A DNA stretch of 64,000 bases from an uncultured Colwellia sp. (GTDB taxonomy: Bacteria; Pseudomonadota; Gammaproteobacteria; Enterobacterales; Alteromonadaceae): the NCBI GenBank assembly GCA_913058395.1, contig CAJXQI010000007.1:62001-126000 (forward strand). The letters are read 5' to 3'. The position numbers were made by a program, and so were the translations under genes. Below, piece after piece: positions 18,235-55,298 of the stretch; position 1 is the stretch's first letter, and every line of letters starts with the position of its first letter. The notes under the pieces were generated by a model, which was not told the DNA's origin, made no database searches, and was given only the letters and a program-made list of their open reading frames with translations.

Positions 18235-21200
18235 CTAATCACTGACAACCGTGAAGCCATTGGCTGTAGCAGCAACGACTTTTCCATCACTAAAAGTAAC
18301 CTGAAGTGTTTGATTACTAAAGTTATAGACTACGTAACTAGTGACGCCGTTTTTCTCAAACGCTAATGCCGCAGGGTGGTTAGCTGTTAGCGCGCCAGTA
18401 CCTGTTTTTAAATGCCCTAATTTGCTGAAGGTATGAAGCCAGTGATAGGTATGGGCTTTGGATTCACCTGCTTCAGCGTCATAATTGCTAACACTGTTAT
18501 AGTCAGCTATGGCTAAATCGGCATTGGTCATTGCCCATAAACTCCACCAAATGTCGCGCCATTGGTCATCAACTAAACCCGAAGGCTTACCATTTGATGA
18601 CTCACTTAATCCTAATGTTACATAATCTTCCATATAGTCAGCATGCAAGCCAACGTGCAGTGTAAGTGGGTTTATTGGCAAACCTTGTATACCTAAAATA
18701 TGGGCATAAGCTGCGCTGAACCATGTTGAAAACACTGCGCCGTCTCCCCATATAATTGAGGTTGTTATTTTGTCGTAGCCATCTGGGAAGTTGTTTTCAG
18801 TTTCACCGACAGCATTGTAATCATCAATATTGTTCCAATACTCCCAATATGCTGCCGTGGTTGATGCGTGTAAATACATGCCACGCTCTACTAAATCATT
18901 ATTGTCGGTGCTTAAGCCATAGAGAATAATTGCGCCATAGGCGTTGGCGGCTTCTGAAGTGGATTCATTATTATTGCCACGAGCGAAATTGACTTTACCT
19001 GATGCCCAGGAAAAACCATTGGCAGGGTCAAAGTTGCGTAAATATGGAAACATAGTGTCGTCTCTACCCCCAGCATAATCACGGATCAGTAGTTCAATCA
19101 TAGGGCCGTATTGCTCATCACTGCACCAGCTTGCGTCCATTCGGCAAATTTCTGCGGCTGCGCGAATCAAATAACCATAATGAAAATGATGATCATTGAG
19201 CTGTTGATGACTCATAAATGATTCTTCTAATGCCAATAATGTCGACCATTCCTCATCATAAACAAAGTATTTATTGATATCTAAGCTACTGTCTGTTTCA
19301 GCAGTAAACCAGTCAGATAGCTCTGTTTTTAGCCAGTTTCGCAGAGTCGCTGCTTCCGTTGTCATACCGATTGATTCGGCAATGGCGATTAATTCAGCAA
19401 CTTTACTGTAGTTCTTTCCTGACCAATAAGCGTCGGTGTGTGTATTCCAAGAATCAGCCCCTTGTGCAATGAACTCAGTGATCATGGTTTCTAATGTTAT
19501 TTGATCAAAAGTACCATCAATTGACGGTAATGTTGGCAGTATGCCCACGAAAGGTAGTTGATAGCTAAATTGTGCAGTTTCACTAAACTTAATAGTGCCG
19601 CGGGCACTTTTAATCTGGTAAGCCGATGTTGTTTGTGTTGAGTTTTTCCAGTGCAATGGGTGCATACCTGCGATTGTTTCGACAGTTGCCCCTTGGCTAT
19701 TTTTATAAGCATGGCTAACAGTAACGGTATTAGTGGCTTTATCAACTGAGTAATCTATAGCGACACTTGCGACAACATTGCGTGCTTTTGCAGCAAAGAA
19801 ACTGGTTAAAGTATCGGAAGGTACACCATTTAAGCTCGGAAGATAGGTGAGTGTAAATTCTTTTGTAGCATTATTAATAGTGATTTCATTACTAGTAATA
19901 TTGTCAAATGTTGTTGTTCCTTCGCCAGTAATTAAAAAATTATTGCTATTACCGGCAACGCTAGTCCAAATACCTAAACTATTATCTTGATTGTAAAATG
20001 TACCTTTTTCACTGCCGTCATCACGTAAGCTACGTATCACTATTTCACCGTCATATACTTTAAAGTATATGTATGGTGAGCCATGAACAAAAGTGGCTTC
20101 CATAACCGCTGTGTCGTTATTTTGCCATTCAACTGTTACTGAGCCGTCACTGTGATCTTTTAAATAACCTTGCAAATTTGCATGTAGTGAATTGCCAACG
20201 GCAATACCGTCAAACACTTCGCTAAATGGGTCAGGAATAGGGTACAGGAAACCGTCTGTTGTGGTGGTTAAGCCTGATGGAATACCCATAACTCTAACGC
20301 CACGCTCTGATATGCGTGCAGTCATTGGGTCTGGGGTAATATAGGCGGCGGTGTTAGCATCACCTATGGTCATTTCTCCCATAAATGGCACAGAGCCCCA
20401 CCATTTATGAGTTGGCGTTGGCTTAGTTAAAGCTGGGCCTGTTAATTGCGGGTGTAATTTAGTTGGAGTTCCCGTGGGAACACCTGTAGTTGTATCGCAA
20501 CTAGCAATTGCGGGCTCAACAATGCCTGCATTGTAAATCCAATTGCCAAAGTCATAAACACAACGATAGCTTTCTGGGTTGATAGTATCGGAAATAGAAC
20601 CTGCGCCGTAGTTCGTTATTTGATATGAACCTGGGCTAGTTCCGCCATCGTTGATACCGGTGAAATGGATATTGTCTAGCTGAAATATGGTGCTGGTTGT
20701 ATCGGTAGCCCATATGACTATTCCTGTGTTGACACTTGATAGGTTTAGTCCTGCATTGGCTAACGAGGCTAAAGAAATCTCAACAGTTTCCCAGCCTGCT
20801 GCGCCTAAACTACCTAGAGGTTGATCGCCAGACGTACAAGGGTAAATACAATCAAGTTTCATGGTTATTTTACTGTCACCACTAACAACTTTAACGTCAA
20901 AGACAAGCTTTCCATCGGTATGGTTGCTAAGGTTTAGTACACTGCTCATGCTAATAAATAGCCCTGCAATATCACCGCTAGCACTATGGCTGACTTCTAA
21001 AACATTACCTCGTTCATTGTCATTTACAATTTGCCAAGCAATACTTGGGCAACCTGCGCCACCGTCATTATTACACTCTGCCCAACCTATCGCTGAGTCA
21101 AAGGCATTTATGCCTCTATCCCAAAGCGTACTTACTGCACCATTTTCAAAAACGTTCACTTGCGTGCTTGCTGTGCTATCACCAACATTAATAATTCTAA

Positions 21201-21987
21201 CGGCGGTTGCTTGATTACCGGCATTATCGGTTGCAGCGTAAGTTAAGGTATAGGCCTGTGCTACATCACCTACGGTACCTGAGGTAGTAACGCTTACTGC
21301 TCCATCAACTGTATCTATTGCAGTGGCACCTGCATCGACATATTCATTGCCTATCGGATGATTGATTGTTGTATCGCCAATTATGCTAATCACAGGTGCA
21401 GTCGTGTCTGCGACGACAATTGTTCGAATGGTCGACGTTGTATTACCAACAATATCTGTCGCGGTGTAAGTTAAGGTATAACTTCCGGCACTGCTTTCTA
21501 CTTGCCCAGAAGTTGTTACAACGACATTACCATCAACCAAATCATTGGCACTGGCACCGGCATCAGTATATTCAGTGCCTTGTTCATGATTAATGCTGGT
21601 GTCGCCATTAAGCGTAATAGTAGGTGCAGTAGTATCTGAAACGGTAACTGTTCTTGTTGTTGAGGCAGAATTTCCTGCTTTATCTGAGGCGGTGAAAGTT
21701 AGCGTATAAATACCTGCTTGTTGACCTATGGCACCTGACGTAGTTACTGCTGTTGCACCATCAACATTGTCAGTAGCACTTGCTCCAGCATCAACATAGG
21801 TAGTACCTTGCTCATGCTCGACACTTGCTAAGCCAGCTAGTGTTATAATTGGTGCTGTTGTATCTAAAGGAGCAGGAGTTGTGCTGTTTCCACCTTGCTC
21901 ACTACTGCCACTACCTCCTCCGCAAGCTTGTAAAGCCAAAGTTACAAGGATAAATATAGAGGGAACTTGCCTAAACTGAACAGCCAT
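18235..21987 (-). CDS. GH81 endo-beta-1,3-glucanase lipoprotein with Ig-like and accessory modules
   Basis: 1250 residues. A lipobox with Cys22 (LALQACGGGS) is followed by three DUF5011/HYR-like Ig domains (about 45-270, each starting DTTAPxI), an accessory module (about 275-445) related to those of the GH16 and GH3 neighbours, and a GH81 domain to the end. GH81 marks are THKWWGSVPF, NDHHFHYGYLIRAA (about residue 929) and NESTSEAANA (about 1007), whose two Glu are four apart as in known GH81 active sites. It should cleave internal beta-1,3 bonds of laminarin at the outer surface. It is transcribed alone from ~22.0 kb. Confidence 0.93.
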   Translation of the reverse strand: MAVQFRQVPSIFILVTLALQACGGGSGSSEQGGNSTTPAPLDTTAPIITLAGLASVEHEQGTTYVDAGASATDNVDGATAVTTSGAIGQQAGIYTLTFTASDKAGNSASTTRTVTVSDTTAPTITLNGDTSINHEQGTEYTDAGASANDLVDGNVVVTTSGQVESSAGSYTLTYTATDIVGNTTSTIRTIVVADTTAPVISIIGDTTINHPIGNEYVDAGATAIDTVDGAVSVTTSGTVGDVAQAYTLTYAATDNAGNQATAVRIINVGDSTASTQVNVFENGAVSTLWDRGINAFDSAIGWAECNNDGGAGCPSIAWQIVNDNERGNVLEVSHSASGDIAGLFISMSSVLNLSNHTDGKLVFDVKVVSGDSKITMKLDCIYPCTSGDQPLGSLGAAGWETVEISLASLANAGLNLSSVNTGIVIWATDTTSTIFQLDNIHFTGINDGGTSPGSYQITNYGAGSISDTINPESYRCVYDFGNWIYNAGIVEPAIASCDTTTGVPTGTPTKLHPQLTGPALTKPTPTHKWWGSVPFMGEMTIGDANTAAYITPDPMTARISERGVRVMGIPSGLTTTTDGFLYPIPDPFSEVFDGIAVGNSLHANLQGYLKDHSDGSVTVEWQNNDTAVMEATFVHGSPYIYFKVYDGEIVIRSLRDDGSEKGTFYNQDNSLGIWTSVAGNSNNFLITGEGTTTFDNITSNEITINNATKEFTLTYLPSLNGVPSDTLTSFFAAKARNVVASVAIDYSVDKATNTVTVSHAYKNSQGATVETIAGMHPLHWKNSTQTTSAYQIKSARGTIKFSETAQFSYQLPFVGILPTLPSIDGTFDQITLETMITEFIAQGADSWNTHTDAYWSGKNYSKVAELIAIAESIGMTTEAATLRNWLKTELSDWFTAETDSSLDINKYFVYDEEWSTLLALEESFMSHQQLNDHHFHYGYLIRAAAEICRMDASWCSDEQYGPMIELLIRDYAGGRDDTMFPYLRNFDPANGFSWASGKVNFARGNNNESTSEAANAYGAIILYGLSTDNNDLVERGMYLHASTTAAYWEYWNNIDDYNAVGETENNFPDGYDKITTSIIWGDGAVFSTWFSAAYAHILGIQGLPINPLTLHVGLHADYMEDYVTLGLSESSNGKPSGLVDDQWRDIWWSLWAMTNADLAIADYNSVSNYDAEAGESKAHTYHWLHTFSKLGHLKTGTGALTANHPAALAFEKNGVTSYVVYNFSNQTLQVTFSDGKVVAATANGFTVVSD

Positions 21988-26278: not shown

Positions 26279-27394
26279 ATGGATATTATGGAAAATAAAA
26301 ACACTGAAAGTACACTTGAACTGGGACCGCAAGCTTTTTCTAAGCAAAGTCATCAGTTTTGGACGTTACAGATAACAGGTTGGTTAGGTTATGCTGTCGT
26401 GGTTTTTATCGCGATAATTCGTCCGCAGATAGGTCAGGAAGACTTTAACCTTTCAGGGCAGTTGATAAATCTAGTTTTAGAAACGCTAAGCGGTTTCATA
26501 TTGTCTTATTTGCAATGGCAAATGATCCGAAAAATAGTTCATTTGCCATTGAAGAAAACACTAGTCTTAAGTTTTGTTTCTGCAGCAAGCTTAGGTTTAG
26601 TTTTTAATGTGATAAAACTGAGCTTTTACAAAGTTGTTGTTTACCAACAGCAATGGAATGAAGCATGGGATATGCTCGAGTTTGGTGGTTGGTTATTGTT
26701 TTCATTAACAACTATGTTTGTATGGACGTCAATTTATTTCATTATGCTATACAACACGAAATTGCAGCGTGAACACGAAATGTTATTACGAGCACAAACA
26801 GCGGCTAAAGATGCTCAGTTACAGATGCTACGTTATCAACTTAACCCTCATTTTATGTTCAATACCATGAACGCGATATCAACCCTTATTTACAAAAATG
26901 AAAATGACACTGCAAACGAAATGATCGACAAGCTGTGCGAATTTTTTCGTTACTCTCTTGATAAAAATGATAAAAGCAAAACAAGCTTGCAAAGAGAGCT
27001 TGAGTTAATTGAGCTATATTTATCTATAGAAAAGGTCAGATTCGCTAACCGTCTTAGTGTTGACGTTGATGTTTGCGAAACCGTATTAGACTGCCAAGTG
27101 CCAAGTATGTTGCTACAGCCACTGGTGGAAAATGCCATTAAATATGCCATAGAACTAAGAAAGTCTGGTGGGAAAATACGCATTATTGCTAAAAAAGTGG
27201 CTGAGCGTTTAATTATTAAAGTGGCCGATAATGGTCAAGAAACGCCTATTAAGGTGAGAGATGGTTTTGGCATTGGTATGAGTAATACTAAAGCAAGATT
27301 AAATGCCATGTTTAGCGGTGATTATCACGTTGATATCACTGATGCTATAGATGGTGGCACTACGGTTTCTATTTCAATTCCTTATGAGAAGTAA
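26279..27394 (+). CDS. LytS/AlgZ-type sensor histidine kinase
   Basis: 371 residues. Four hydrophobic segments lie in the first ~165 residues (for example GYAVVVFIAIIRPQIG and WLLFSLTTMFVWTSIYFIML). A His_kinase domain has the phospho-acceptor in NPHFMFNTMNAIS, and an ATPase domain has VENAIKYAIE and DNGQETPIKVRDGFGIGMSN. The second codon group also offers ATG 26288. No separate sensor domain is present, so the membrane part likely senses. It is followed after 8 bases by its LytTR regulator. Position directly before GH16 suggests that it controls the glucan locus. Confidence 0.9.
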   Translation: MDIMENKNTESTLELGPQAFSKQSHQFWTLQITGWLGYAVVVFIAIIRPQIGQEDFNLSGQLINLVLETLSGFILSYLQWQMIRKIVHLPLKKTLVLSFVSAASLGLVFNVIKLSFYKVVVYQQQWNEAWDMLEFGGWLLFSLTTMFVWTSIYFIMLYNTKLQREHEMLLRAQTAAKDAQLQMLRYQLNPHFMFNTMNAISTLIYKNENDTANEMIDKLCEFFRYSLDKNDKSKTSLQRELELIELYLSIEKVRFANRLSVDVDVCETVLDCQVPSMLLQPLVENAIKYAIELRKSGGKIRIIAKKVAERLIIKVADNGQETPIKVRDGFGIGMSNTKARLNAMFSGDYHVDITDAIDGGTTVSISIPYEK

Positions 27395-27402
27395 ATTGAT
27401 AA

Positions 27403-28233
27403 ATGATTAACAAACCTCTAACAGCTTTAATTGTTGATGATGAACCTCTAGCACTAGAAGGTTTACGTTTACGATTAGAAAAAATTCCTGAAATTGAAGT
27501 CATCGCTGAAGCGAGTGATGGTGACCAAGCCATTCAGTTATGTCAGTCTTTATCTCCCGATGTGTTGTTTTTAGATTTACGTCTGCCGGGCCTTAACGGC
27601 ATTGAAGTGGTGCAAGCATTGCAGTCAGACATTTTGCCAATGGTGGTTTTTGTTAGCGCCTACGGCGAATATGCTCTCGATGCCTTCGAACTGAATGCGA
27701 TTGATTATGTCATGAAACCCGCTAACTTAGGGCGCTTGCAGAAAACAGTAGAGCGTATTTTACAACGAGTAGAACCGATAGATTCAGGCAAAGAAAAGTT
27801 TAAGTTATTACGTGCACTTGGCGAAAGCTCTGGTATTGCCGTTTCGGAGCTTGAAGATTGGCTTGAATCTGATTTGCCATTGCCGAGCCCATTTATTCAA
27901 GAGTTAGTGATTAAAAATAATGATAACGATAAAGTGTTCTTGCCAATAAAAGATATTAGGTGGATTGATGCTGCAGGTGATTACATGTGTGTTCACACTC
28001 AAGATGAAACTTACATTGTACGCATCACCATGAAAAAACTTGAGAGCCAATTAGATCCTAAAATATTCTCTCGTATACATAAATCGACCTTGGTGAATGT
28101 TAATTGTATTAAAAGTATTAAATCGTTACGAAATAGCGAGAGTATTCTTGAGTTAGGTGATGACGTGCAATTAAAAGTAAGCCGTAATTTTAGTTCTGAT
28201 ATTCAAAAAATTGTCGAATCTAAACAAATTTAA
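27403..28233 (+). CDS. LytTR-family response regulator
   Basis: 276 residues. The receiver domain has the acidic pair VDDE and phospho-Asp in VLFLDLRLPG, with Lys in VMKPANLG. A linker is followed by a LytTR DNA-binding domain (about 170-270: IKDIRWIDAAGDYMCVHT, FSRIHKSTLVNVNCIKSI, LKVSRNF). It is coupled to the kinase gene 8 bases upstream. LytTR domains bind short direct repeats, and candidates lie before this operon and before GH16. Confidence 0.93.
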   Translation: MINKPLTALIVDDEPLALEGLRLRLEKIPEIEVIAEASDGDQAIQLCQSLSPDVLFLDLRLPGLNGIEVVQALQSDILPMVVFVSAYGEYALDAFELNAIDYVMKPANLGRLQKTVERILQRVEPIDSGKEKFKLLRALGESSGIAVSELEDWLESDLPLPSPFIQELVIKNNDNDKVFLPIKDIRWIDAAGDYMCVHTQDETYIVRITMKKLESQLDPKIFSRIHKSTLVNVNCIKSIKSLRNSESILELGDDVQLKVSRNFSSDIQKIVESKQI

Positions 28234-28496: not shown

Positions 28497-31400
28497 ATGA
28501 TAAAAGCTGCAAAGAATATTACACAGTTGTTAGCATTATTATCGACTGCAACCTTAATAGGGTGTGGTGGTAGTAGTGTTGAAACGAAAACAAATGTTGA
28601 TGCCGTCGATCCACAAGTACCAGTAAGTGATTGGCAATTGGTATGGAGCGATGAGTTTGACGGTTCATCAATCGATGCTAACAAGTGGACTCATGAAGTC
28701 AATTGTAGTGGCGGTGGTAATAATGAAGAGCAATGTTATACCAATGACGCTGCAAACTCTTTTATTGCTGACGGTATGCTCAATATTGTCGCTCTACCAG
28801 CAGCAGAGGGCGCTGCCAAGCCTTACACGTCTGCCCGATTAAATACTAAAGACAACCAAAGCTGGACATATGGTCGTTTTGAAATGCGAGCAAAATTACC
28901 TGCAGGTCAAGGCGCATGGCCTGCATTTTGGATGTTACCAACTGATGAAGTTTATGGTGGCTGGCCTCGTTCGGGTGAAATTGACATTATCGAAGCAGTT
29001 AACTTAAAAGCAGGCACTAACGAAGGTGGCAGTGAAGCTAACGTATACGGCACCTTACATTATGGTAAAGAATGGCCTGATAACAGCTCTTCAGGGCAAG
29101 CTTACTTATTGCCAGATGGTATTAACCCCGCTGATGATTTTCATACCTATGCTATAGAATGGCAAGAAGGTGAAATTCGTTGGTATGTTGATGATTATTT
29201 ATATGCAACGCAGCGTAAATCTACCGTGCGTTACAACAGTAAAGATGAGCCTGTAGGTTTATCTCATCGTGGTTGGTTTACAGAAAATTTTGATATTGTT
29301 TCTGGTGAACTTGCAACGCAATGGGAAAATGCGCCTTATGATCAGAGATTTCATTTACTGCTGAATTTCTCAGTTGGTGGTAACTGGCCATCATCGGTAA
29401 ACGATACGGGTATTGATGCCAGTGCATTTGAAAATGGCAATTCCTACATTGTTGATTATGTGCGAGTCTATCAATGTCAGCAAGACACTTTAACCGGTAA
29501 GGGCTGTGAAACTGTACGCCCAGGTTACGATAGCTTCGATGATGCAATGGTTGAAGGTAAAGCACCAATTCCGTCACCGCCTTCTACGGGGATTCCGCAA
29601 AATTTAACTATTTTCTCTGGCGCTATTAATCCAAATTGGCCGGCATGGGACTGTTGTGGTGGTTCAACACCTGCAGTCGTTACAGATGCTGAAAAAGGTG
29701 ATGTTGTTGAATTTGTTGTTGGTGCTGAGCCAACAGTGATGGGCTTTATTTCTCGTGAAGCTTTTATTGATGATCCGGCCGGACAAGCATCGCCATTTGA
29801 TGCATCGCCGTTAATTGATTCTGGTACCTTGAAATTTGACATGAAAGTCGTAGCCGCGCCAAGTAATGCGGATTCAACTTGGATATTAAAAGTTGAAAGT
29901 CAAGAAGGTACTACTGCAGTTGAAATGCCACTAACGGCAAGCTTTGAAGGTGCAGCCCCTGAAGCGGGCACGTGGCAAACCTATACATTTCCTTTACAAA
30001 CATTAGCTGATGCGGGCCTAGATTTAAGCGCTATCGACGTTGTAATGATTTTCCCAGCTTGGGGCACAGGTGAAGGGGCGGTTTATCATGTTACTAACTT
30101 ATCAATTGCAGGTGACGCCGTTGCTTCTCCTCAAGTAACCATATTCGAAGATGCAGAAAATGCTAGCTGGCCAATGTGGGATTGCTGTGGTGGTTCAACG
30201 CCAACAGTAGAAACTGACGATGATGCACATGGCGCGGTCGCACAATTTAGTATTGGCGCTGAACCAACCGTTATGGGCTTTATTTCAAGAGATGGCAATA
30301 CTGATACACCAGCACCATTTGACGCTACGGGTATTTTGGCTAACGGTGTTGTGCAATTTGATATGAAAGTTGTCACGATGCCAACTGATGCCAGTGCAAG
30401 CTGGGTATTTAAAGTTGAAGCCGATAATGCTACATCAGCGGTTGAACTACCACTATCAAGTAGTGTTGAAGGAGTAACGCCGGTTGCTGACCAATGGCAA
30501 ACCTATACCTTTAACTTAGCTGATTTAGCTAATGCTGGTTTAGATGCAAGTGCAATTGACGTACTGATGATATTCCCTGCATGGGGCACTGGCGATGGTG
30601 CTGTTTATCGTGTCGACAATGTAAAAATCTACGATCCTAATGCCTCTACTGGTTTTACTGGTCACATTCTATTTGCAGACGATGCCAAAGAGCAATGGAG
30701 TATTTGGGACTGTTGTGGTGGTTCAACACCTACGCTTGAAAATGATGACACTGACCATGGTATGACAGCAGAATTTGTTATTGGTGCAACGCCAACGGTA
30801 ATGGGGTTATTAGCCGATGATGATGTGTACTTAGACGCTTCAAGTTTATTAAGTACAGGTGTTATGCAATTTGAAATGAAAGTGATTAACGCACCAAATG
30901 ATGCTAGCGCAGTATGGAAATTTAAAATTGAAGCCGGCGATACATCATCTGCCGTTGAGCTAGACCTAACAGCAAGCCAAGAAGGTGCTGCTCCTGTTGC
31001 CGGTCAATGGCAAACTTATACCTATTCATTGCAAAGTTTATTTGATGCGGGTTTAGATCTTAGTGCAATTGACGTAGTGATGGTTTTCCCAGCTTGGGGA
31101 ACGGGTGAAGGAGCTGTATATCGCCTAGACAACGTAATGATATTTGATCCTACCAGTGTACCAACAGCACAAGGTTTAACTTTGTACGACAACGCGCAAA
31201 ATGCAGAATGGCCAATTTGGGATTGTTGTGCGGGTTCAACACCAACCGAAGAAGAAGATGATGCAACACACGGTATGACAGCTGAGTTTGTTATTGGTGA
31301 TACGCCAACGGTGATGGGCTTCTTAGCAAATGATGGTGTTTACTATGATGCAAGTGCATTACTGCAAAACGGTGTGGTGAAATTTGATATGAAAATGGTA

Positions 31401-31667
31401 AGTGCGCCAAATGATGCAAGTGCGGTGTGGAAGTTTAAAATTGAATCCGGTGATACCACATCAGCTGTTGAGCTCGATTTAACGGCAAGCCAAGAAGGCG
31501 CTGCGCCAGTTCTAGGCGAATGGCAAACCTACACTTATACGCTTTCAGACCTATTTGATGCTGGCTTAGATGTTAGTGAAATTGATGTAATTATGGTTTT
31601 CCCTGCTTGGGGAACGGGTAATGGAGCTGTTTATCGACTGGATAATGTCGCGATAACTGCACCGTAA
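28497..31667 (+). CDS. GH16 laminarinase lipoprotein with four tandem WDCC modules
   Basis: 1056 residues. Lipobox Cys23 (TLIGCGGSS). The GH16 domain (about 45-330) has GEIDIIEAV with Glu161 as nucleophile, Asp163 and Glu166 as acid/base, as in beta-1,3-glucanases. Four modules of ~172-177 residues follow, each with a WDCC[GA]GSTP motif (Trp at 384, 561, 737 and 908), a TVMG[FL] strand, and the late pattern WQTYT...AGLD..[AE]IDV. The vicinal Cys pair is invariant. The modules probably bind glucan at the cell surface. It heads a transcript continuing 88 bases later into the TonB receptor. Confidence 0.94.
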   Translation: MIKAAKNITQLLALLSTATLIGCGGSSVETKTNVDAVDPQVPVSDWQLVWSDEFDGSSIDANKWTHEVNCSGGGNNEEQCYTNDAANSFIADGMLNIVALPAAEGAAKPYTSARLNTKDNQSWTYGRFEMRAKLPAGQGAWPAFWMLPTDEVYGGWPRSGEIDIIEAVNLKAGTNEGGSEANVYGTLHYGKEWPDNSSSGQAYLLPDGINPADDFHTYAIEWQEGEIRWYVDDYLYATQRKSTVRYNSKDEPVGLSHRGWFTENFDIVSGELATQWENAPYDQRFHLLLNFSVGGNWPSSVNDTGIDASAFENGNSYIVDYVRVYQCQQDTLTGKGCETVRPGYDSFDDAMVEGKAPIPSPPSTGIPQNLTIFSGAINPNWPAWDCCGGSTPAVVTDAEKGDVVEFVVGAEPTVMGFISREAFIDDPAGQASPFDASPLIDSGTLKFDMKVVAAPSNADSTWILKVESQEGTTAVEMPLTASFEGAAPEAGTWQTYTFPLQTLADAGLDLSAIDVVMIFPAWGTGEGAVYHVTNLSIAGDAVASPQVTIFEDAENASWPMWDCCGGSTPTVETDDDAHGAVAQFSIGAEPTVMGFISRDGNTDTPAPFDATGILANGVVQFDMKVVTMPTDASASWVFKVEADNATSAVELPLSSSVEGVTPVADQWQTYTFNLADLANAGLDASAIDVLMIFPAWGTGDGAVYRVDNVKIYDPNASTGFTGHILFADDAKEQWSIWDCCGGSTPTLENDDTDHGMTAEFVIGATPTVMGLLADDDVYLDASSLLSTGVMQFEMKVINAPNDASAVWKFKIEAGDTSSAVELDLTASQEGAAPVAGQWQTYTYSLQSLFDAGLDLSAIDVVMVFPAWGTGEGAVYRLDNVMIFDPTSVPTAQGLTLYDNAQNAEWPIWDCCAGSTPTEEEDDATHGMTAEFVIGDTPTVMGFLANDGVYYDASALLQNGVVKFDMKMVSAPNDASAVWKFKIESGDTTSAVELDLTASQEGAAPVLGEWQTYTYTLSDLFDAGLDVSEIDVIMVFPAWGTGNGAVYRLDNVAITAP

Positions 31668-31755: not shown

Positions 31756-34700
31756 ATGAAACATTTAACATTCTCAAAAAAACATTTAGCTGTATGTATC
31801 TCAGCAATTATTAGCTCGGGCTTTAGCCAACAAGCTTTTGCTGCGGAAGAAGAAGCTGCATTAACAGAAAAAGAAGAAAATATTGAAGTGATCACGGTAT
31901 CAGGTATTCGTGGCAGTTTAGTGCGTTCAATGAATATTAAACGCGATATGTCAGGTGTTGTTGATGCCATTTCAGCCGAAGAAATGGGTAAGTTCCCAGA
32001 CACTAACTTAGCGGAATCTCTGCAACGTATCACAGGTATTACTATTAGCCGCGCAAACGGTGAAGGTAGCCAAATTACTGCCCGTGGTTTTGGTCCAGAG
32101 TTTAACTTAGTCACTTTGAATGGTCGCCAAATGGCGAGCACAGGTTTTACCCGTTCATTTAATTTTGAAAACCTGTCATCTGAAGGGGTGAGTGAACTAC
32201 AAACCATTAAAACTGCCCGTGCAGAAATGCCAACTGGTGGTTTAGGGGCAACGGTCAATATTGTGACTGCCAAGCCTTTACAAAACCCAGGACAAAAGTT
32301 TTCGTTTATGGCAAAAGGAATTCACGATAGCTCAGTGGAAGCAGGTGATGATGTTACGCCAGAAATTGCTGGTATTTATAGTAATACCTTTGATGATGAT
32401 CGTTTTGGTGTGTCAGCTAACTTTTCTTATCATCGTCGCGACTTTCAACGACAATCTGCCAATGTACGTTCATGGATCAGAAACCATAATATTAGTTTAG
32501 ATCCTGAAAATGTAATTGATAATCGTCCGGTAGACGCTGAAGGTAATGTTGCTGAACAGTATTCAATACTTGATGATAATGGCGATATTTCATCTATTGC
32601 CGCGTCATTTTTTCCGCAAGAAATAAGCTATGCGCGAGATGATGTTCAACGTGAACGTACCAATGCGCAAGTTACTTTTCAGTTTGCACCTACAGACGAA
32701 CTAGTGTTTACACTTGATCACACTATATCTAATGCAGTCACAGGCAATAACTCACTTTCTTGGGGCGTATGGAATGGTTCGTTTGGTGGCAATGCCAACT
32801 CCTATGAATTAGATGAAAATGGTACGGCTATTTATTATAACTCGGCTGGTGATGACGGTTCGTTTACCTCATTTCGCGAAACAACCGAAGTTGACTCAAA
32901 AGCCACTGGTTTTAATGTTGAATGGTATGCCAATGATAATTTAAGTTTTACCTTTGATGCTCATAATTCAAAAACCACAACTGATAATGGTAAAGATAAA
33001 GGCTTAGGCGCCAATGCTCGCGTTATTTTAGGCTCTGCCGACTTATCAAGTAAGGAATACTTCTTTAGAGAAGGTGATATACCGGGTTTTAATATTAACT
33101 GGAATAATGGCTCTCAAGAAATTAACCCTAACGAAATTGGCTCCAACTTTAGTATTTTTACCCGCACGCCGGCAGAATCTGAAGTAACGCAAGTGCAATT
33201 AGATGGTAACTTGATATTAGACACTGACTTCGGCCTAGAAGCGGTTAAGTTTGGTACTGCGTACACCAAACAAACACTTGAAGGCTGGGGCGGCTCAAAC
33301 AATGCTAATGCACCTGGTTTCAATAACGGAACTTTTGCTGAAATATTCCCTGATGGTATGTTTGAAAGAGTTGATTTAAGTGATTTTCTTGATGAGTTTT
33401 CTTTTGGCTCGGGCGGAGTTTCACCTGGTTATGCTTACACATTTAATCTTGATGAAGCCTATACAAGACAAGCTTTATTTCTAACCGAGGATGTGGTTGG
33501 CAGTGATGTATATCAAATAGGTACCTTCGACGGTTTCCCAACCAATAAAGTAGAAGAAGAAACCATTAGTTTATATGTTGCTACTGATTGGGCATTTGAA
33601 ATCAGTGGTTATGACGTGCAAGTGAACCTTGGCTTACGTTATGAAAAAACTGAGGCTGTAAGCCCTGCAAAAAGTCGTGTAGCAGAGCAAGTATACTGGG
33701 CAGGTGGTTCAGAATGGATCACTGAATTTGCAAGTGGCGGAGAAGTTGAAGTTGAATTCGAAGGTGAGTATGACTTCTTACTGCCTATGTTAGACATCAA
33801 AGTTGACCTAAGTGACGACCTAGTAGCACGTGCATCAGTAGGTCAAACCATTACGCGCCCTGCGCTAGGCGATATGTTGGGTAACCTGAGTTTAACCCCT
33901 TCACCTAAGATTGGTTCAAGAGGTGGTAGTCGTGGTAACACAGGTCTACAGCCATTTAAATCAACCAATTTAGATCTATCTCTTGAGTATTACTACGGTG
34001 ATGCAAGCTATGCATCAGTCGGCTTATTTTGGAAAGATGTTGATGACTGGATGGCCGGTTCATCGGTAAAAACAACGTATGAAGGCCTGCACGATGTTTA
34101 CTTAGGTCAACGCTGGAATAATGCGGTTGCTGCCATTGAAGGACGCGGAGAGCAAGCCACTGACACAGCTATTTACAATGAAATTGTTGCGAACGGCATC
34201 GGTATTGGTGAGAACAATCGAGTATTAGCTGACCCTGCAACTGATCCTTTAATTGAATGGACAATTGACTCTCCAGAGAATGTTGATGCCCGTAAAGTTA
34301 ACGGTATTGAATTAGCCGTGCAGCATTTATTTGGTGAAACGGGTTTTGGGGTTGGCGTTAACGCTACGTTTGTTGATGGTGATGTTGATGTTGATAACTA
34401 CTATATTGGCCGTCAGAAAGTACTTCCCGGGTTAAGCGACTCTGCCAATTTACAAGTGTTTTATGAGAAAGATGGCATATCAGTCAAAGTGACTGGTGCA
34501 TGGCGTGATAAGTACTTAGTGGGCTTAGGTTTACCTGATACAGGCGGCGATTCAGCGCCATTATATGCTGAAGAGTTTCTGCAGTGGGACCTAAGCGTTA
34601 ATTACGAAGTCACTGACAATATGACGGTGTTTTTTGATGGCGTTAACTTAACCAACGAAACTGAGCGCAAGTATAGCCGTTTCGAAAGTCAATTTGTTAG

Positions 34701-34758
34701 TGCTGCGCAATACGGACCAAGATATGTACTTGGTTTTAGATACACCATGGATGACTAA
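31756..34758 (+). CDS. TonB-dependent receptor, probable laminari-oligosaccharide importer
   Basis: 1000 residues. The signal peptide ends near SQQAFA, and a TonB box-like IEVITVSG follows. The plug domain has AEEMGKFPDTNLAESLQRITG, GSQITARGFGPEFNLVTLNGRQ and GLGATVNIVTAKP. The barrel ends in ...RYVLGFRYTMDD. This is the Alteromonadales type that works without SusD. It should take oligosaccharides cut by GH16/GH81 across the outer membrane using TonB-ExbBD energy. Substrate is inferred from the flanking glucanases. Confidence 0.94.
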   Translation: MKHLTFSKKHLAVCISAIISSGFSQQAFAAEEEAALTEKEENIEVITVSGIRGSLVRSMNIKRDMSGVVDAISAEEMGKFPDTNLAESLQRITGITISRANGEGSQITARGFGPEFNLVTLNGRQMASTGFTRSFNFENLSSEGVSELQTIKTARAEMPTGGLGATVNIVTAKPLQNPGQKFSFMAKGIHDSSVEAGDDVTPEIAGIYSNTFDDDRFGVSANFSYHRRDFQRQSANVRSWIRNHNISLDPENVIDNRPVDAEGNVAEQYSILDDNGDISSIAASFFPQEISYARDDVQRERTNAQVTFQFAPTDELVFTLDHTISNAVTGNNSLSWGVWNGSFGGNANSYELDENGTAIYYNSAGDDGSFTSFRETTEVDSKATGFNVEWYANDNLSFTFDAHNSKTTTDNGKDKGLGANARVILGSADLSSKEYFFREGDIPGFNINWNNGSQEINPNEIGSNFSIFTRTPAESEVTQVQLDGNLILDTDFGLEAVKFGTAYTKQTLEGWGGSNNANAPGFNNGTFAEIFPDGMFERVDLSDFLDEFSFGSGGVSPGYAYTFNLDEAYTRQALFLTEDVVGSDVYQIGTFDGFPTNKVEEETISLYVATDWAFEISGYDVQVNLGLRYEKTEAVSPAKSRVAEQVYWAGGSEWITEFASGGEVEVEFEGEYDFLLPMLDIKVDLSDDLVARASVGQTITRPALGDMLGNLSLTPSPKIGSRGGSRGNTGLQPFKSTNLDLSLEYYYGDASYASVGLFWKDVDDWMAGSSVKTTYEGLHDVYLGQRWNNAVAAIEGRGEQATDTAIYNEIVANGIGIGENNRVLADPATDPLIEWTIDSPENVDARKVNGIELAVQHLFGETGFGVGVNATFVDGDVDVDNYYIGRQKVLPGLSDSANLQVFYEKDGISVKVTGAWRDKYLVGLGLPDTGGDSAPLYAEEFLQWDLSVNYEVTDNMTVFFDGVNLTNETERKYSRFESQFVSAAQYGPRYVLGFRYTMDD

Positions 34759-34934: not shown

Positions 34935-36209
34935 ATGGCTGGAAATTCGGTCATTTTAGAGCAAAATCATGGCGTAACTAGTAGTGTTTCGCCAAGTCAA
35001 AATCGTTTTGCTCTGATCTCATTAACAACACTGTTTTTTATGTGGGGTTTTATTACCTGCTTAAACGACATTCTTATTCCACATTTAAAAGCCATTTTTG
35101 ATTTAACTTATACGCAATCAATGTTGGTGCAGTTTTGCTTTTTCGGCGCTTACTTTTTGGTGTCACTACCTGCTGGGCAGTTAGTGAAAAAAGTTGGTTA
35201 TCAAAAAGGTATTGTGGCAGGGCTTGTTGTCGCAGCGCTGGGTTGCTTGATGTTTTACCCTGCGGCGTCAATGCACAGCTATCCGATGTTTTTGTCAGCG
35301 TTATTTGTGTTAGCCAGTGGCATAACTATTTTACAAGTTTCGGCAAATCCTTATGTTACGTTGTTGGGGCCAAAGGAGTCGGCGTCATCACGCTTAACCA
35401 TGACCCAAGCCTTTAACTCTTTAGGCACAACTGTAGCTCCCTATTTAGGCGCATTGTTTATTCTTAATGAAGCAGCAAGCTCAATGTCAGCACCTTCTGC
35501 TGACTCTGTAAAAGTGCCGTATTTAGTACTAACAGCAGCGTTATTACTATTAGCCGCCATTTTTGCTTGGTTAAAACTTCCACATATTAGTAGCGCTGAA
35601 ACCGCGCCGGACGAAGCGTTATCAGGTTCAGCTTGGCAATATCGTCATTTAGTTTTAGGTGCTATCGGTATTTTTGTTTATGTTGGCGCTGAAGTATCCA
35701 TTGGCAGCTTTTTAATTAACTTTTTTGGTGAAGCTAATATTGCCGGTTTAGAAGAGTCTGAAGCTGCTAAGTATCTTACGTATTATTGGGGCGGAGCCAT
35801 GGTCGGACGTTTTATTGGTGCCGCTGTAATGCAAAAAATATCTGCTACTAAAGCGCTGAGCTTTAATGCCTTTTTTGCGGTTGTTTTAGTTTCTGTCGCT
35901 ATTATCACGAGTGGCAGTATTGCTATGTGGGCGATGCTTTTAGTGGGGTTATGCAATTCAATTATGTTCCCCACAATTTTTAGTTTGGCGTTAAATGGCT
36001 TGGGTAAGCACACAAGCCAAGGTGCCGGAATTTTATGTCTAGCCATTGTTGGTGGTGCAATTGTACCGTTAATTCAAGGCGTACTCGCTGATATCGTTGG
36101 CGTGCAATTGTCATTTGTTATTCCTGTGCTTTGCTACAGCTATATTGTTTATTACGGTATGAGTGGTGCTGTGCCAAGCAATGCTTCAAATCGGGAGCAA
36201 ATGTCATGA
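34935..36209 (+). CDS. Sugar MFS transporter (FucP/GluP type)
   Basis: 424 residues with about 12 membrane helices. The N-terminal [19 protein letters not shown] is the family signature of the fucose/glucose/galactose:H+ symporters. It probably brings glucose released by GH3 into the cytoplasm. AGGAA lies upstream of the start. Its stop overlaps the start of the GH3 gene (ATGA), making a translationally coupled pair. Confidence 0.92.
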
Positions 36210-38788
36210 ATAAATTAGCTTATGCGGCTTTATCTTCTATCGTTTTACTTGCTTTGCAAGGTTGTAATTCAGCAACGAAAGAGCAAACAACTGACAATAA
36301 AGTAAGTGCTGATCAGACCGAAAATAATCTATCTATTTGGCCAGTCATAAACTCTGAAGTTAAGACTGATATAGCGCTTGAACGACAAGTACAAGCAATG
36401 CTCGCTACTATGACGTTAGAGCAAAAAGTAGCGCAAATGATCCAGCCAGAAATTCGTGATATCACCCCAGAAGATATGCGTAAATATGGCTTTGGCTCAT
36501 ACCTTAATGGTGGCGGTGCGTTCCCGCAAAATAATAAACATGCAACACCGCAAGATTGGATAGCACTTGCAGAGGAAATGTATCAAGCCTCGATTGATGA
36601 TTCACTCGATGGTTCAACGATTCCAACCATGTGGGGCACGGACGCCGTCCACGGTCATAACAATGTTATTGGTGCGACTTTGTTTCCGCATAATATTGGT
36701 CTAGGAGCAGCACACAACCCTGAGTTAGTAGAAAAGATTGCCAAGATTACCGCCACTGAAGTGATGGTGACAGGTATTGATTGGGTATTTGCACCAACAG
36801 TAGCAACGGTTCGAGATGACCGCTGGGGCAGAGCTTATGAAGGTTACTCTGAAGATCCTGAAATCGTAAAGTTATATGCGGCCTCAGTGGTAAAAGGCTT
36901 GCAAGGACATGCTGATGATGAATTTTTAGGTGATGACAGGGTGATCAGTACAGTTAAACATTTTATTGGTGATGGCGGTACCGTTGCAGGTGACGATCAA
37001 GGTAACAATCTAGCGTCTGAAGAAGAGTTATATAAACTTCATGCCCAAGGTTATGTTGGTGGCTTAACTGCAGGCGCACAATCAGTGATGGCGTCATTTA
37101 ATAGTTGGCATGGCGAAAAAATTCATGGCAATCGCTACTTATTAACCGATGTATTAAAAGGCAAGATGGCCTTTGATGGTTTTGTCGTTGGTGATTGGAA
37201 TGGTCACGGACAAATTGTTGGTTGTACTAATGAAAATTGTCCGCAAGCCGCTAACGCCGGTTTAGATATTTTTATGGTACCGACCGATGCTTGGAAACCG
37301 TTGATGGAAAACACCATAGCGCAAGTTAAACAAGGTGTTATTCCACAATCTCGTATTGATGATGCGGTAAGTCGTATTTTACGCGTTAAATACCGAGCAG
37401 GATTATTTAGTAAACCGAGTCCTGCCAAGCGACTTTACTCAGGAAAAACTGAGCTTATTGGCCATGATAAACATCGAAAAGTTGCTCAACAAGCTGTACG
37501 AGAGTCGTTAGTGTTGTTGAAGAATAAGGCTAACATTTTACCGCTTTCTCCTCAGCAAAATATTCTAGTAGCGGGTGATGCTGCTAATAATATTGGCAAG
37601 CAATCAGGTGGTTGGAGTATCACGTGGCAGGGAACTAACAATAGTAATGAAGACTTCCCTGGTGGTTCATCAATTTACCACGGTCTTGCTCAACAAATTA
37701 ATGCCGCTGATGGCAAGGTAACACTTAGTGAAGATGGCAACTTTGCCGAAAAACCGGATGTCGCAATCGTTGTATTTGGTGAAGAACCTTATGCTGAAGG
37801 GCATGGTGATAAAGATAATTTAGCTTATCAGCGCGGCACAAAATCTGATTTAGCCTTATTGAAAAAGCTGAAAAGCCAAGGTATTCCCGTGATAAGTATT
37901 TTTATTAGCGGCCGCCCGATGTGGGTGAATGCTGAGTTAAATGCCAGTGATGCTTTTGTTGCGGCTTGGTTGCCAGGCTCTGAGGGTAAAGCGGTTGCAG
38001 ATGTGCTGTTAAAAAGTATAGACGACAATATTCAGCATGACTTTACCGGTAAACTTTCATTTTCTTGGCCAAAAACAGCAACACAAACCGTTAATCGCTT
38101 TGATGAAGAATACGATCCGTTACTGCCTTACGGATATGGCTTAAGCTACGCTTCTAATGAAGGGACAGCCCAAAAGCAGTTATCAGACAACTTACCTGAG
38201 CATATCGAAAATGATGAGGCTGTTGTTAAAAACACTGCTGTTTTTGCTGGCAAAGTGGTTAAGCCGTGGCGGATGTTTTTAACGTCTAATACGCAAACAT
38301 CAGAGTTACTTTCTAATAGTGGCGCTTTACCGGGTGCAACTTATCGCACCATCGACAAAGTCGTACAAGAAGATGCATTTCGCCTTGAAACTAATGGTCG
38401 CGAAAAAGCGGGTGTTAGTTTTTCTAGCAGCTTTAGAGAAGATTTATCTTTTGAACTTGAGCAAAAATCAGCGTTAGTGATGACCTTAATGCGCGATAGT
38501 GATATCTCTGGCGCAGTTAATATTGCTATGAGCTGTGAATCTGAAGGTGATGTTGCTGGTAGTTGTCGGGCAGAAGTTGATATTCAACAACAATTAAAAG
38601 CTGTACCCAAAGGAGAGTGGCGTGAAGTAGCTATTGACCTGCAATGCTTTGCAAAATCAGGCGTGCAGCTAGATAAAATTGTTTCACCATTTGAGCTCAG
38701 TACTGATGGCGTAATAAATTTATCATTCAGTGATATTCGTTTTATGCCTAATGTTTTCACTGAAAGTAACGAATGTATTAAAGAATAA
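36206..38788 (+). CDS. GH3 beta-glucosidase lipoprotein (ExoP-like)
   Basis: 860 residues from ATG 36206, which has GGGAG eight bases upstream and overlaps the transporter stop; the frame upstream of this is not coding. Lipobox LALQGCNS. The GH3 N-domain has [22 protein letters not shown] and the nucleophile Asp330 in VVGDWNG. The (alpha/beta)6 domain has [16 protein letters not shown]-terminal ~160-residue module (with [10 protein letters not shown]...[11 protein letters not shown]) resembles the accessory modules of GH16 and GH81. It should release glucose from laminari-oligosaccharides in the periplasm. Confidence 0.95.
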
Positions 38789-46441: not shown

Positions 46442-48664
46442 TTACTTTAAATCAAAGCGATCTAATTGCATTACTTTCACCCAAGCATTAACAAAGTCGT
46501 TGATGAATTTTTTATCCGCATCATCTGAAGCATAAACTTCAGCGATAGCACGTAATTCTGAGCTAGAGCCAAAAATTAAATCAACGGGCGTTGCTTGCCA
46601 TTTGAACTTCCCTGAGCTTCGGTCAAAACCTTGGTAGATGCCTGCCTGTGATTCATCTTTTTGCCATGTTGTTGACATATCTAATAAGTTAACAAAGAAG
46701 TCGTTGGTTAATACGCCAGGCTGTTTGGTGAACACACCTAAAGTAGAACCATCGTAGTTGGTATTTAATACACGCATTCCGCCAATCAATACCGTCATTT
46801 CAGGCACATTTAAACTAAGTGAATTGGCCTTATCAACTAACATTTCTGCTGGTGACATGTAACTTTCATCAGTGAAATAGTTTCTAAAACCATCTGCTTT
46901 AGGCATTAAGTAGTTAAATGATTTAATATCTGTTTGCGCTTGTGAAGCATCTGCTCGTCCCGGTGTAAATGGCACAGTTATGCTAGTTCCTGCTAATTTT
47001 GCCGCATTTTCAATAGCGGTTGCACCAGATAAAACAATTAAATCGGCAAGTGATATTTGTTTACTTGATGATTTACTATTGAAGCTACGCTGTATGCTGG
47101 TAAGTTTGGTTAACACCTTCTTTAATTCAGCAGGATTGTTAACAGCCCAAGTGTTTTGTGGTGTTAAGTTGATACGTGCACCATTAGCGCCGCCACGCAT
47201 GTCAGTGACACGATGACTCGAAGCTGCCGCCCATGCTGTTTTGACTAATTCAGCATTAGATAAGTCCGACTTTTTTATCTGCTTTTTAAGCTTTGCAATG
47301 TCGTTTTTGCTAACGAGTTTGTATTCAATTGCAGGAATAGGGTCTTGCCATAATAATACTTCACTTGGTATTTCAGAGCCTGCGTATCTAGCTCTTGGCC
47401 CCATGTCACGATGAGTTAGCTTGAACCAAGCTTTAGCAAATGCACGATCAAATTGACTTGTATCAGCTCTAAAGCGTTTAACAATTTTTAAGAACTCAGG
47501 GTCTTCTTTTAATGCTAAATCTGTGGTGAACATAATAGGCGCATGCCGCTTATTGGGAATATGAGCGTCAGGCACTAAATTAGCCGCAGCTTTATCTTTA
47601 GGTATCCATTGAATTGCACCTGCTGGACTTGTAGTGATAACCCAGTCGAAGTTCATTAAGTTATCCAAATAGTTAGAAGACCACTGTGTTGGCGTTGTTG
47701 TCCAAGCACCTTCTAAGCCGCTGCTAGTTGTATCAGCTCCAACGCCAGTGCCACATTTATTTTTCCAACCTAAACCTTGCTGCTCGATACTGGCGGCTGC
47801 GGGCTCTGCACCAACACACTGATCTGGTTTTTTAGCGCCATGGGCTTTGCCTAAAGTATGCCCACCTGCTAACAGTGCAACAATTTCTTCATCATTCATT
47901 GCCATTCGTCCGAACGACATTCTAATGTCTTGTGCTGCTAATAATGGATCAGGTTTGCCATGTGGGCCGACAGGATTTACATAAATTAAACCCATTTCAA
48001 CGGCGGCAAGAGGGCCTTTAAGTTTGCCTTTTTTGTCTCTTCGTTTATCATCAAGCATGGCAGTTTCAGGTCCCCAATAAACTAAATCAGGTTCCCAGTC
48101 ATCACTTCTGCCACCGGCGAAACCAAAGGTTTTAAAGCCCATTGACTCTAATGCAACGTTACCTGAAAGTACCATTAAATCAGCCCACGAAATTTTACGA
48201 CCGTATTTTTGTTTTACCGGCCATAGTAAGCGTCGAGCTTTATCTAAATTAACGTTATCAGGCCAACTATTTAACGGGTCAAAACGTTGCTGTCCGCCTG
48301 ATGCGCCACCACGACCATCATGTACGCGATAAACGCCTGCGCTGTGCCATGCCATACGAATCATCAGCGGCCCATAATGCCCCCAGTCAGCGGGCCACCA
48401 TGATTTTGAATCGGTAAGTGTGGTTTGAATATCTTTCTTCAGTTGTTGTAAATCCAGTGTTTCAAATTCTTTTGCGTAATTGAATTCTGCGCCGTAAGGG
48501 TTTGACTCAACACTATGTTGGCGTAATGGACTTAAGTTTAATTGCTCAGGCCACCAAAACTGGTTGGTTTTGGCTTCTCCAAGCGCTAAGGCAGAAGTAG
48601 AGAGTGTCATCGACGAAATGGCGACAGTAACAGCAGCCGCTAGTGATAGTGTTTTTTTAAACAT
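46442..48664 (-). CDS. katG: Catalase-peroxidase KatG with signal peptide
   Basis: 740 residues from ATG 48664 (GGGGA upstream; the frame extends to 48697). Unusually it begins with a signal peptide ([21 protein letters not shown]), so it should be periplasmic like KatP, not cytoplasmic. The distal side has [18 protein letters not shown], the cross-link Tyr is in [11 protein letters not shown], and the proximal His is in [14 protein letters not shown]. The second, haem-less half is complete. It removes H2O2. Divergent from oxyR, which probably controls it. Confidence 0.96.
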
Positions 48665-48833
48665 GTTATTCCCCAGTTTTAATACAGACTTATACACTGT
48701 TGATAAGCCTCAGTGCTTAAAGCTTAGAACTGGTGTTAGTGTTTTTATAATTGATTGATTGGAAGATAGTATTCTGTTTTTTAAATGTATAATGTAATTC
48801 TTAATAAAAACAAATGTTTACATGGGCTTTTTG

Positions 48834-54140: not shown

Positions 54141-55298
54141 ATGGCAACTATCAAGTTTTCCTTACCACTAACAGAAGCTGTGAATACACAGCTTTCTCAA
54201 AGTGACGTGCCGGCGTCATTAACAATTGAGCAATGTGCAAAAACACTTGCCATGAGCATGACGTCTTTTCGACGAAAACTTGCACAAGAAGAAACCAGTT
54301 ATAAGCTTATTCAAAATAAGTTTTTAAATGAGCTAAGCGTACAAGCCTTATTAGAAAAACAGGCTAATATTGATGAATTATCTTTTAAACTAGGCTACTC
54401 AGAAAGGGCAACTTTTGAGCGTGCTTTTCGTCAACGTTTTGGTACCACACCTTCACAATTTAGAGAGTTGTCGCTTGTTAATAGTGCACAAAGCAGCTTT
54501 TTGAAACTAACCGAAATTGCACAAAATATCCCTCCTATGTCTGATAGTTGCCAACAGCTACTTGAAGAAAAAGATAAGGGCAGTTTGGACTTGCAACGTG
54601 TTATTGAAATTGTTGGAAAAGATGCTATTTTTTCTGGTCGATTAATGGGGCAAGCGAGTAAAGCAATATACGGGAAAACGCCTAAAAACTTACAAGAGGC
54701 GATAAGCCGTAATTTAGGTGTTGGCACTGTGGTTAATTTTGCCATTATTTATGCCATGAAAGATGCTCTAAAAGACAATGTTGATCAAAAAATTATTGAG
54801 CAATACAGTCAAGCTTTTCTGATGGCACCAAAGTTTTTTCAACGATTACGTAAACTATTAAAAAGGCCGGTGGATTTTGATATTGCCCTTACAGAGCAAA
54901 TATTAGTTTTTTCATTACTCGGTATATTTTTACTTAGTCATAAAGAAACATACAAACATGAGCTTATGTTGCATTCTTTGATTGGCATTGATGATTTACG
55001 CTCGTTAAATCATCACATTAAAGAGGCGATGGGGATCAGTATTTTCTCTGCTTCGTCATTAATGCTATCGCTATGGCATATTGATGCAAACGTCGTTAAA
55101 CAATTGAACCATATAGAGAAAGTGAGTCAGCTGCAAATTAAGAGCAATGAGCATAACGAATTGATTTTGTTTATGTTGTCTTGTTTATACGTAGCCGCAA
55201 CAGACCATGATGATTATAGTGCTTTGGAGCAAAAAGCGGAGTTGTTAAATATTAATAATTTTAGCGAGTTAAAAGAGCTGTTATCAACAGTATCGTAA
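54141..55298 (+). CDS. AraC-type HTH fused to a HDOD domain
   Basis: 385 residues. The N-terminal ~110 residues are an AraC-type double helix-turn-helix (TIEQCAKTLAMSMTSFRRKLAQEETSYK, IDELSFKLGYSERATFERAFRQRFGTTPSQFR). Normally this domain is at the C-terminus. The remainder resembles a HDOD domain (FLKLTEIAQNIPPMSDSCQQLLEEKDKGSLDLQRVIEIVGKDAIFSGRLMGQAS), a signalling module that lacks HD catalytic residues. Probably a transcription regulator; no adjacent target is evident. Confidence 0.8.
   Translation: MATIKFSLPLTEAVNTQLSQSDVPASLTIEQCAKTLAMSMTSFRRKLAQEETSYKLIQNKFLNELSVQALLEKQANIDELSFKLGYSERATFERAFRQRFGTTPSQFRELSLVNSAQSSFLKLTEIAQNIPPMSDSCQQLLEEKDKGSLDLQRVIEIVGKDAIFSGRLMGQASKAIYGKTPKNLQEAISRNLGVGTVVNFAIIYAMKDALKDNVDQKIIEQYSQAFLMAPKFFQRLRKLLKRPVDFDIALTEQILVFSLLGIFLLSHKETYKHELMLHSLIGIDDLRSLNHHIKEAMGISIFSASSLMLSLWHIDANVVKQLNHIEKVSQLQIKSNEHNELILFMLSCLYVAATDHDDYSALEQKAELLNINNFSELKELLSTVS

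Follow-up and report, generated by a model that had tools for sequence, protein, structure and literature searches.

What do four tandem modules with an invariant W..WDCC motif do at the C-terminal end of a laminarinase, and what is the role of the two adjacent cysteines present in each of them? These questions are raised by a gene at positions 28497..31667 (+) of a 64,000-nucleotide stretch from an uncultured Colwellia species (contig CAJXQI010000007.1, positions 62,001 to 126,000; hereafter, the window), which codes for a glycoside hydrolase family 16 (GH16) endo-beta-1,3-glucanase (laminarinase) lipoprotein of 1056 amino acids. The best overall explanation, which we regard as moderately probable, is that these are laminarin-holding modules with a vicinal disulfide on an outer-membrane laminarinase. 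Ligand binding, the S-S bond, and the contact of the bond to sugar are what we infer here, each at a strength of its own.

Four tandem modules and their conservation

A sequence-only reading of this DNA had placed the four tandem modules by WDCC motifs at residues 384, 561, 737, and 908, and these positions, with spacings of 177, 176, and 171 residues, were confirmed. The modules are 165-177 residues long and occupy residues 368-544 (29598..30128, with the codons of the cysteine pair at 29652-29657), 545-720 (30129..30656; pair at 30183-30188), 721-891 (30657..31169; pair at 30711-30716), and 892-1056 (31170..31664; pair at 31224-31229) on the plus strand; the identity to module 1 amounts to 57, 52, and 55% for modules 2, 3, and 4. 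At the DNA level, repeats spaced 513-534 bases apart were detected independently. In the alignment of the four modules, which spans 180 columns, W14, W17, D18, C19, and C20 are invariant, in agreement with the earlier claim that all four modules keep the cysteine pair, and the statement that the motif is mostly followed by GGSTP holds as well (GGSTP in modules 1-3, AGSTP in module 4).

Relatives were collected by scanning the species collection of GTDB, and the best 80 of 280 confirmed relatives were kept; one of the two scan patterns contained WDCC, so that part of this 80-locus set was picked on the motif. The set contains 255 modules, with 1-4 per frame, some frames being cut by contig ends. 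The pattern W..W.CC is kept in all 255 (252 WDCC and 3 WNCC): both loop tryptophans, both cysteines, and P24 are invariant, the aspartate is present in 252, and every module contains exactly two cysteines. Across the whole set, four tryptophans are invariant and a fifth is found in 254 modules, with one gap. Judged by this conservation in 255 of 255 modules, chance is excluded as the origin of the WDCC repeat pattern.

The same data bear on the proposal that the cysteines form inter-module disulfides or bind a metal, which we consider very improbable. There are several modules per protein with one cysteine pair each, as this proposal would have it, and a conserved Asp and Glu might serve as metal ligands; however, some proteins contain just one CC module (e.g., L122, L123, and L124), and neither a His nor a third Cys occurs among the columns conserved in at least 90% of the 255 modules.

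The catalytic part of the window protein is assigned to GH16 by a Pfam match of the frame at 28497-31667 to Glyco_hydro_16 (5.2e-21), and the top PDB match of the protein is the laminarinase 3iln (1.3e-47). The GH16 catalytic motif E161-x-D163-x-x-E166 (28977..28994, +) is invariant, its three acidic residues being kept in all 18 of the four-module proteins that were aligned. By this motif and its laminarinase relatives, the protein is identified as a GH16 beta-1,3-glucanase. A predicted signal peptide (28497..28565, +) ends in a sequence resembling a lipobox, L-I-G-C (Cys23), and a lipobox-like motif near the N-terminus was recovered by a simple regular expression in 62 of the 80 relatives.

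Since WDCC had been part of one scan pattern, a hidden Markov model (HMM) of 33 modules was also run against whole genomes drawn from the phylum and from the bacterial family of the window. Matches were obtained in 19 of 398 genomes of the phylum draw, the strong ones falling in the window's own order, and in 252 of 395 genomes of the family draw.

Two features of individual relatives are recorded here as side observations. Behind their last module, the Thalassotalea GH16 proteins L018 and L028 share an extra tail of 72 residues, to which the module HMM gives no match. In L122 (5910-12359), a single frame of 2150 residues combines GH16, a WDCC module, CBM56, secreted repeats, cytochrome c, and a di-haem oxidoreductase domain, an odd combination of a laminarinase with a haem peroxidase-like domain.

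All-or-none occurrence of the cysteine pair

A divergent set was built with the HMM without selecting on the WDCC pattern. For this set, 61 genomes with a weaker best match were chosen from the 252, and the 60 stretches fetched, a selection from the matches listed, gave, together with 12 earlier ones, 72 stretches. Their 155 module hits were aligned and 132 were counted after 23 with gaps at the motif had been dropped, one of which (in L210) begins within the motif and shows one cysteine. Both cysteines are present in 94 of the 132 modules, neither in 38, and only one in none; among 23 further pairs of neighbouring columns, each column being 50-90% conserved, the number of one-only cases lies between 9 and 69 of 132. 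The pair is retained where the preceding aspartate differs (WNCC, WLCC, YACC, NACC), and the CC modules contain two cysteines in 93 of 94 cases and four in the remaining one.

Trees were calculated from 131 rows with the motif columns left out, one further CC-less row having been dropped for gaps. The presence of the pair needs 12 changes on two such trees, and the well-supported (starred) branches force at least 5. Taken together, the two cysteines behave as a coupled unit, which in an exported protein is strong indirect evidence for a vicinal disulfide. Because the pair behaves in an all-or-none manner and its label changes 12 times on motif-free trees, we regard it as likely that the adjacent cysteines form a vicinal disulfide.

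Predicted fold and relation to named families

The sequence-only reading had asked for a structure prediction, which yielded a carbohydrate-binding-type beta-sandwich: module 2, modelled with AlphaFold2 from 33 sequences, reached a predicted local distance difference test score (pLDDT) of 94.4 and a predicted template modelling score (pTM) of 0.90, with the cysteine pair directly after strand 16-18. The best Foldseek matches were mostly CBM30 entries (carbohydrate-binding module family 30) at E values of about 1e-7. Among the matches listed by a second aligner were CBM8 (7t7y, Z 15.6), CBM30 (2c24, Z 14.7, root-mean-square deviation (rmsd) 2.9, 154 residues, 21% identity), CBM11 (6r3m, Z 13.1), CBM29 (Z 12.9), the C-domain of ExoP (3f95, Z 12.6, rmsd 3.1, 143 residues), and 8qx6 (Z 10.7, 140 residues, 14% identity). 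The module is thus predicted with confidence to be a beta-sandwich like those of CBM8, CBM30, CBM11, and the ExoP domain. Since CBM8, CBM30, CBM11, CBM29, the ExoP domain, and 8qx6 belong to one fold class, the fold alone does not pick a family.

The earlier claim that the modules match no named family is not supported, in view of these fold matches and of the Pfam profile search which it had also called for. The whole window protein scores 55.1 bits against Exop_C (PF18559), with a gathering cut-off of 26.1, and the best stretch covers profile positions 69-144 of 155, corresponding to the C-terminal half of the module without the W..WDCC half; a match over all 155 positions was not obtained for this protein. 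Module 2 alone remains below the cut-off (15.5 bits, profile 65-139). CBM30 gave no Pfam match with the window GH16 protein at E values up to 1, and 9 of 33 single modules match it at this threshold, the best at 0.0019. Taken over their whole length, the two long relatives L208 and L217 exceed the Pfam cut-off for CBM30 (27 bits) with scores of 34.9 and 29.2; their best-scoring stretch falls within a WDCC module, and no stretch reaches an E value of 0.001 by itself.

Profile comparisons connect the WDCC modules with further groups. They align over their full length (162 columns) with a set of 14 CxxPC modules (99.5%, 1.4e-22), which derive mostly from GH16 proteins and include a module on the GH81 protein of the window. 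The CxxPC set is in turn related to C-domains of the ExoP type on GH3 enzymes (95.4%, 115 columns), to which the WDCC modules themselves are linked more weakly (83%, 81 columns). A GH17-linked family with a WGWGAG signature is matched at 92.5% over 82 columns, or half of the module. The module is not an orphan fold, but a new variant within a crowded superfamily. The proposal of an undescribed glucan-binding module with a vicinal disulfide therefore stands in part: the CBM-type beta-sandwich on a laminarinase and the coupled cysteine pair agree with it, but the module is not without matches.

A further question is whether the module is already numbered in CAZy or dbCAN, either as CBM30-like or within a recent laminarin family, without being mirrored in Pfam and NCBIfam. 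The scores of L208 and L217 against CBM30 and the common fold with 8qx6, whose title refers to a laminarin-binding CBM, speak for such an assignment. Against it, PDB searches with profiles of 4 and of 33 modules found no solved chain below an E value of 0.2, and NCBIfam shows no match to the module part of this protein from the window at E values up to 0.01; on balance, we consider it rather unlikely. Laminarin families named CBM102 and CBM103 were reportedly described from Bacteroidota in 2024, and these names are absent from the literature matches listed. No description of the WDCC module was found in the literature searched, which mostly excluded subscription journals and provides weak evidence of absence. 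WDCC was searched together with glucan- or carbohydrate-binding terms and not alone, and does not appear among the matches listed, nor does a pairing of vicinal disulfides with CBM terms among those for that query. Searches for Exop_C, PF18559, or X584 returned matches unrelated by title, among them one on an alginate lyase in which "x584" occurs once; laminarinases with tandem domains gave no match, and nothing useful was apparent by title among the matches listed for the tryptophans of CBM30.

Comparison with known carbohydrate-binding proteins

The C-domain of ExoP (PF18559; 3f95, 3ut0) shares with the WDCC module the beta-sandwich class and the Pfam match in the C-terminal half, and is linked to it through the CxxPC modules. 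It differs in that the best Pfam match lacks the W..WDCC half and in that the GH3 domains compared have their cysteines elsewhere. CBM30 (PF21582; 2c24, 1wmx) ranks near the top of the fold matches with either program, but the structures listed derive from a clostridial cellulase, according to the entry title, and not from a laminarinase. The entry 8qx6, titled "Novel laminarin-binding CBM X584", has the same fold, but its identity to the module is low and it is absent from the 9 PDB sequence matches obtained at E values up to 10.

The Uk-C domain of the Vibrio vulnificus GH17 enzyme (VvGH17) is likewise a predicted beta-sandwich on a beta-1,3-glucanase. According to the accessible part of the report, it binds laminarin and barley beta-glucan and needs three tryptophans (PMC9026390). 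The GH17-linked family of our comparison, in which W80, G81, W82, and G83 are invariant, looks like the VvGH17 Uk-C type by its motifs and the mutagenesis primers of that paper, relatives rather than VvGH17 itself having been compared. Its WGWGAG-type signature is not found in the WDCC modules, whose invariant columns hold T-V-x-G and W..W.CC.

With respect to the cysteines, the SusD protein Bt1762 also combines an adjacent pair (Cys298-Cys299) with a tryptophan in a glycan-binding surface protein. As far as the available text of that study goes, its vicinal disulfide contacts the bound fructan, and levan binding in vitro is lost in the variants W85A and C298A (PMC7782687). Bt1762 differs from the modules in that it belongs to the SusD proteins and has fructan as its ligand, and both bond and contact were seen there in crystals. 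A contact between a vicinal disulfide and a sugar is also described in the accessible part of a report on an arabinofuranosidase (PMC12102755).

Function of the modules and of the cysteine pair

It is quite likely that the module binds glucan. The modelled fold and the genomic setting, with GH16, GH3, and GH81 enzymes and a TonB receptor encoded in the window, speak for a laminarin-holding role. Each module would represent a beta-sandwich of the CBM30/Exop_C kind that grips a beta-1,3-glucan chain (laminarin), with the vicinal disulfide located right after the W..W element near the module N-terminus. The GH16 protein would act as a surface-exposed endo-glucanase anchored as a lipoprotein in the outer membrane, and the four tandem modules may provide several weak grips on a soluble laminarin chain, which would keep the chain close to the active site of the GH16 domain and the cleavage products close to the TonB receptor encoded downstream. 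The disulfide could either form an apolar patch or fix the tryptophan-bearing loop.

In the divergent set, GH16 is present in 48 of the 53 proteins with CC modules vs. 5 of the 17 with only CC-less modules (Fisher test 2.3e-6, a value which ignores the relatedness of the proteins). The link between the cysteine pair and GH16 is loose. The five CC-containing frames without GH16 belong to L226, L236, L207, which contributes two frames that overlap within the same stretch, and L215, whose frame lies at the end of a contig. L226 contains Ig-like domains and CBM4_9 and no catalytic family at E values up to 0.001. This non-catalytic composition is what a glycan-binding protein of the cell surface should show, and it supports a binding role. 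It also argues, together with the tryptophan conservation, which exceeds the needs of a spacer, against the modules merely raising the catalytic domain off the membrane without binding any glycan; their close tandem succession would suit this arrangement, which we nevertheless regard as improbable.

Further side observations concern single frames. The WLCC modules of L226 (972-3596) and L236 (496-3099) occur as two per protein in frames of like size. The GH26 protein of L233 (1601-3739) has two module relatives without the CC pair and without the second Trp, which may possibly be tuned to another glycan.

Several observations weigh against the reading as laminarin-holding modules with a vicinal disulfide. 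The CC-less modules retain W13 (30 of 38) and W16 (32 of 38), so that the disulfide is dispensable for the fold and perhaps for binding; 11 of 70 proteins carry CC and CC-less modules side by side; 25 of the 38 CC-less modules reside on GH16 proteins, the other 13 on frames without GH16; and the CC modules of L226 and L236 occur without GH16. The Bt1762 strain with the W85A exchange was judged to be fully functional in cells, according to the same partly available study (PMC7782687). Finally, the model of the full-length protein was poor (pLDDT 69, pTM 0.33, with much of GH16 below pLDDT 50) and was not used.

These points are relevant for the alternative of a glucan-binding module in which the cysteines are purely structural, either as a vicinal disulfide or as two buried thiols that fix a turn without contacting the sugar. 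The presence of just two adjacent cysteines in each of 255 modules, the retained tryptophans and GH16 context of many CC-less modules, and the location of the pair directly behind a strand of the model are in its favor. The higher frequency of GH16 with CC modules is a hint at a ligand-related function and speaks against it, although relatedness of the proteins could explain this as well. We regard the structural alternative as a serious possibility that falls short of even odds. A contact of the disulfide with the ligand, suggested by analogy to the cases cited above, seems only slightly more plausible, and we lowered our estimate for it somewhat after counting the CC-less modules on GH16 proteins.

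A more far-reaching version of the laminarin-holding reading would see the modules as an undescribed CBM family of marine Gammaproteobacteria, with the disulfide serving as a non-aromatic stacking platform next to two tryptophans and adapted to the helix of beta-1,3-glucan. The cysteine pair would then tune specificity: it is frequent in modules of GH16 glucanases, and the module relatives on most of the other proteins recovered, e.g., on the GH26 protein of L233, lack it. Since 25 of 38 CC-less modules belong to GH16 proteins, a switch of this kind would need to operate at the level of the single module; this version was doubtful to us from the beginning, and after this count we consider it unlikely.

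Genomic context

Neighbouring genes were counted in the 80 related loci by tblastn (E 1e-20, 35% of the query) within stretches of up to 6 kb on each side, some of which are cut. The GH16 catalytic domain is present in all 80. Directly downstream of the GH16 gene, the window contains a TonB-dependent receptor gene (31756..34758, +) with a relative in 77 of 80 loci, followed by genes for a transporter of the major facilitator superfamily (MFS) type (34935..36209, +; MFS_1 3e-23; relative in 27 of 80) and a GH3 enzyme with a full-length Exop_C domain (36131..38788, +; 3e-45, profile 1-155; relative in 22 of 80). The start codon listed for the GH3 gene is probably too early, as the frame overlaps the MFS gene. 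Upstream are a histidine kinase and a LytTR response regulator (26279..28233, +), with relatives in 27 of 80 loci each.

A GH81-type protein with Ig-like domains is encoded at 18235..21987 (-) and has a relative in 1 of 80 loci; a porin of the window has none in the 80. The GH81 protein holds a CC-less module relative of the CxxPC type at 20656-21159 (-), and the GH16 and GH81 proteins of the region thus share a module superfamily. In Pseudoalteromonas carrageenovora, which grows on laminarin, a TonB receptor/GH16 cluster kept in 47 of 52 Pseudoalteromonas genomes is described in the accessible part of the report (PMC6262041); we would guess that its GH16 enzyme is of the same type as that of the window.

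Two more distant genes are mentioned for completeness: one at 54141-55298 (+) codes for AraC-type DNA-binding and HDOD domains in one protein, and one of the catalase-peroxidase type (46442-48697, -), about 8 kb from the GH3 gene, shows its peroxidase domain in two stretches.

Biological implications

Laminarin ranks among the large reservoirs of fresh organic carbon in the ocean. Because a relative of the module is found in 252 of 395 genomes drawn from the family, the way in which it holds its ligand matters for the turnover of carbon. If the proposed contact is true, a CBM in which a disulfide offers a surface for touching the sugar would represent an uncommon recognition device. The CC-less sister modules present in the same proteins in 11 of 70 cases constitute natural controls for the role of the cysteine pair.

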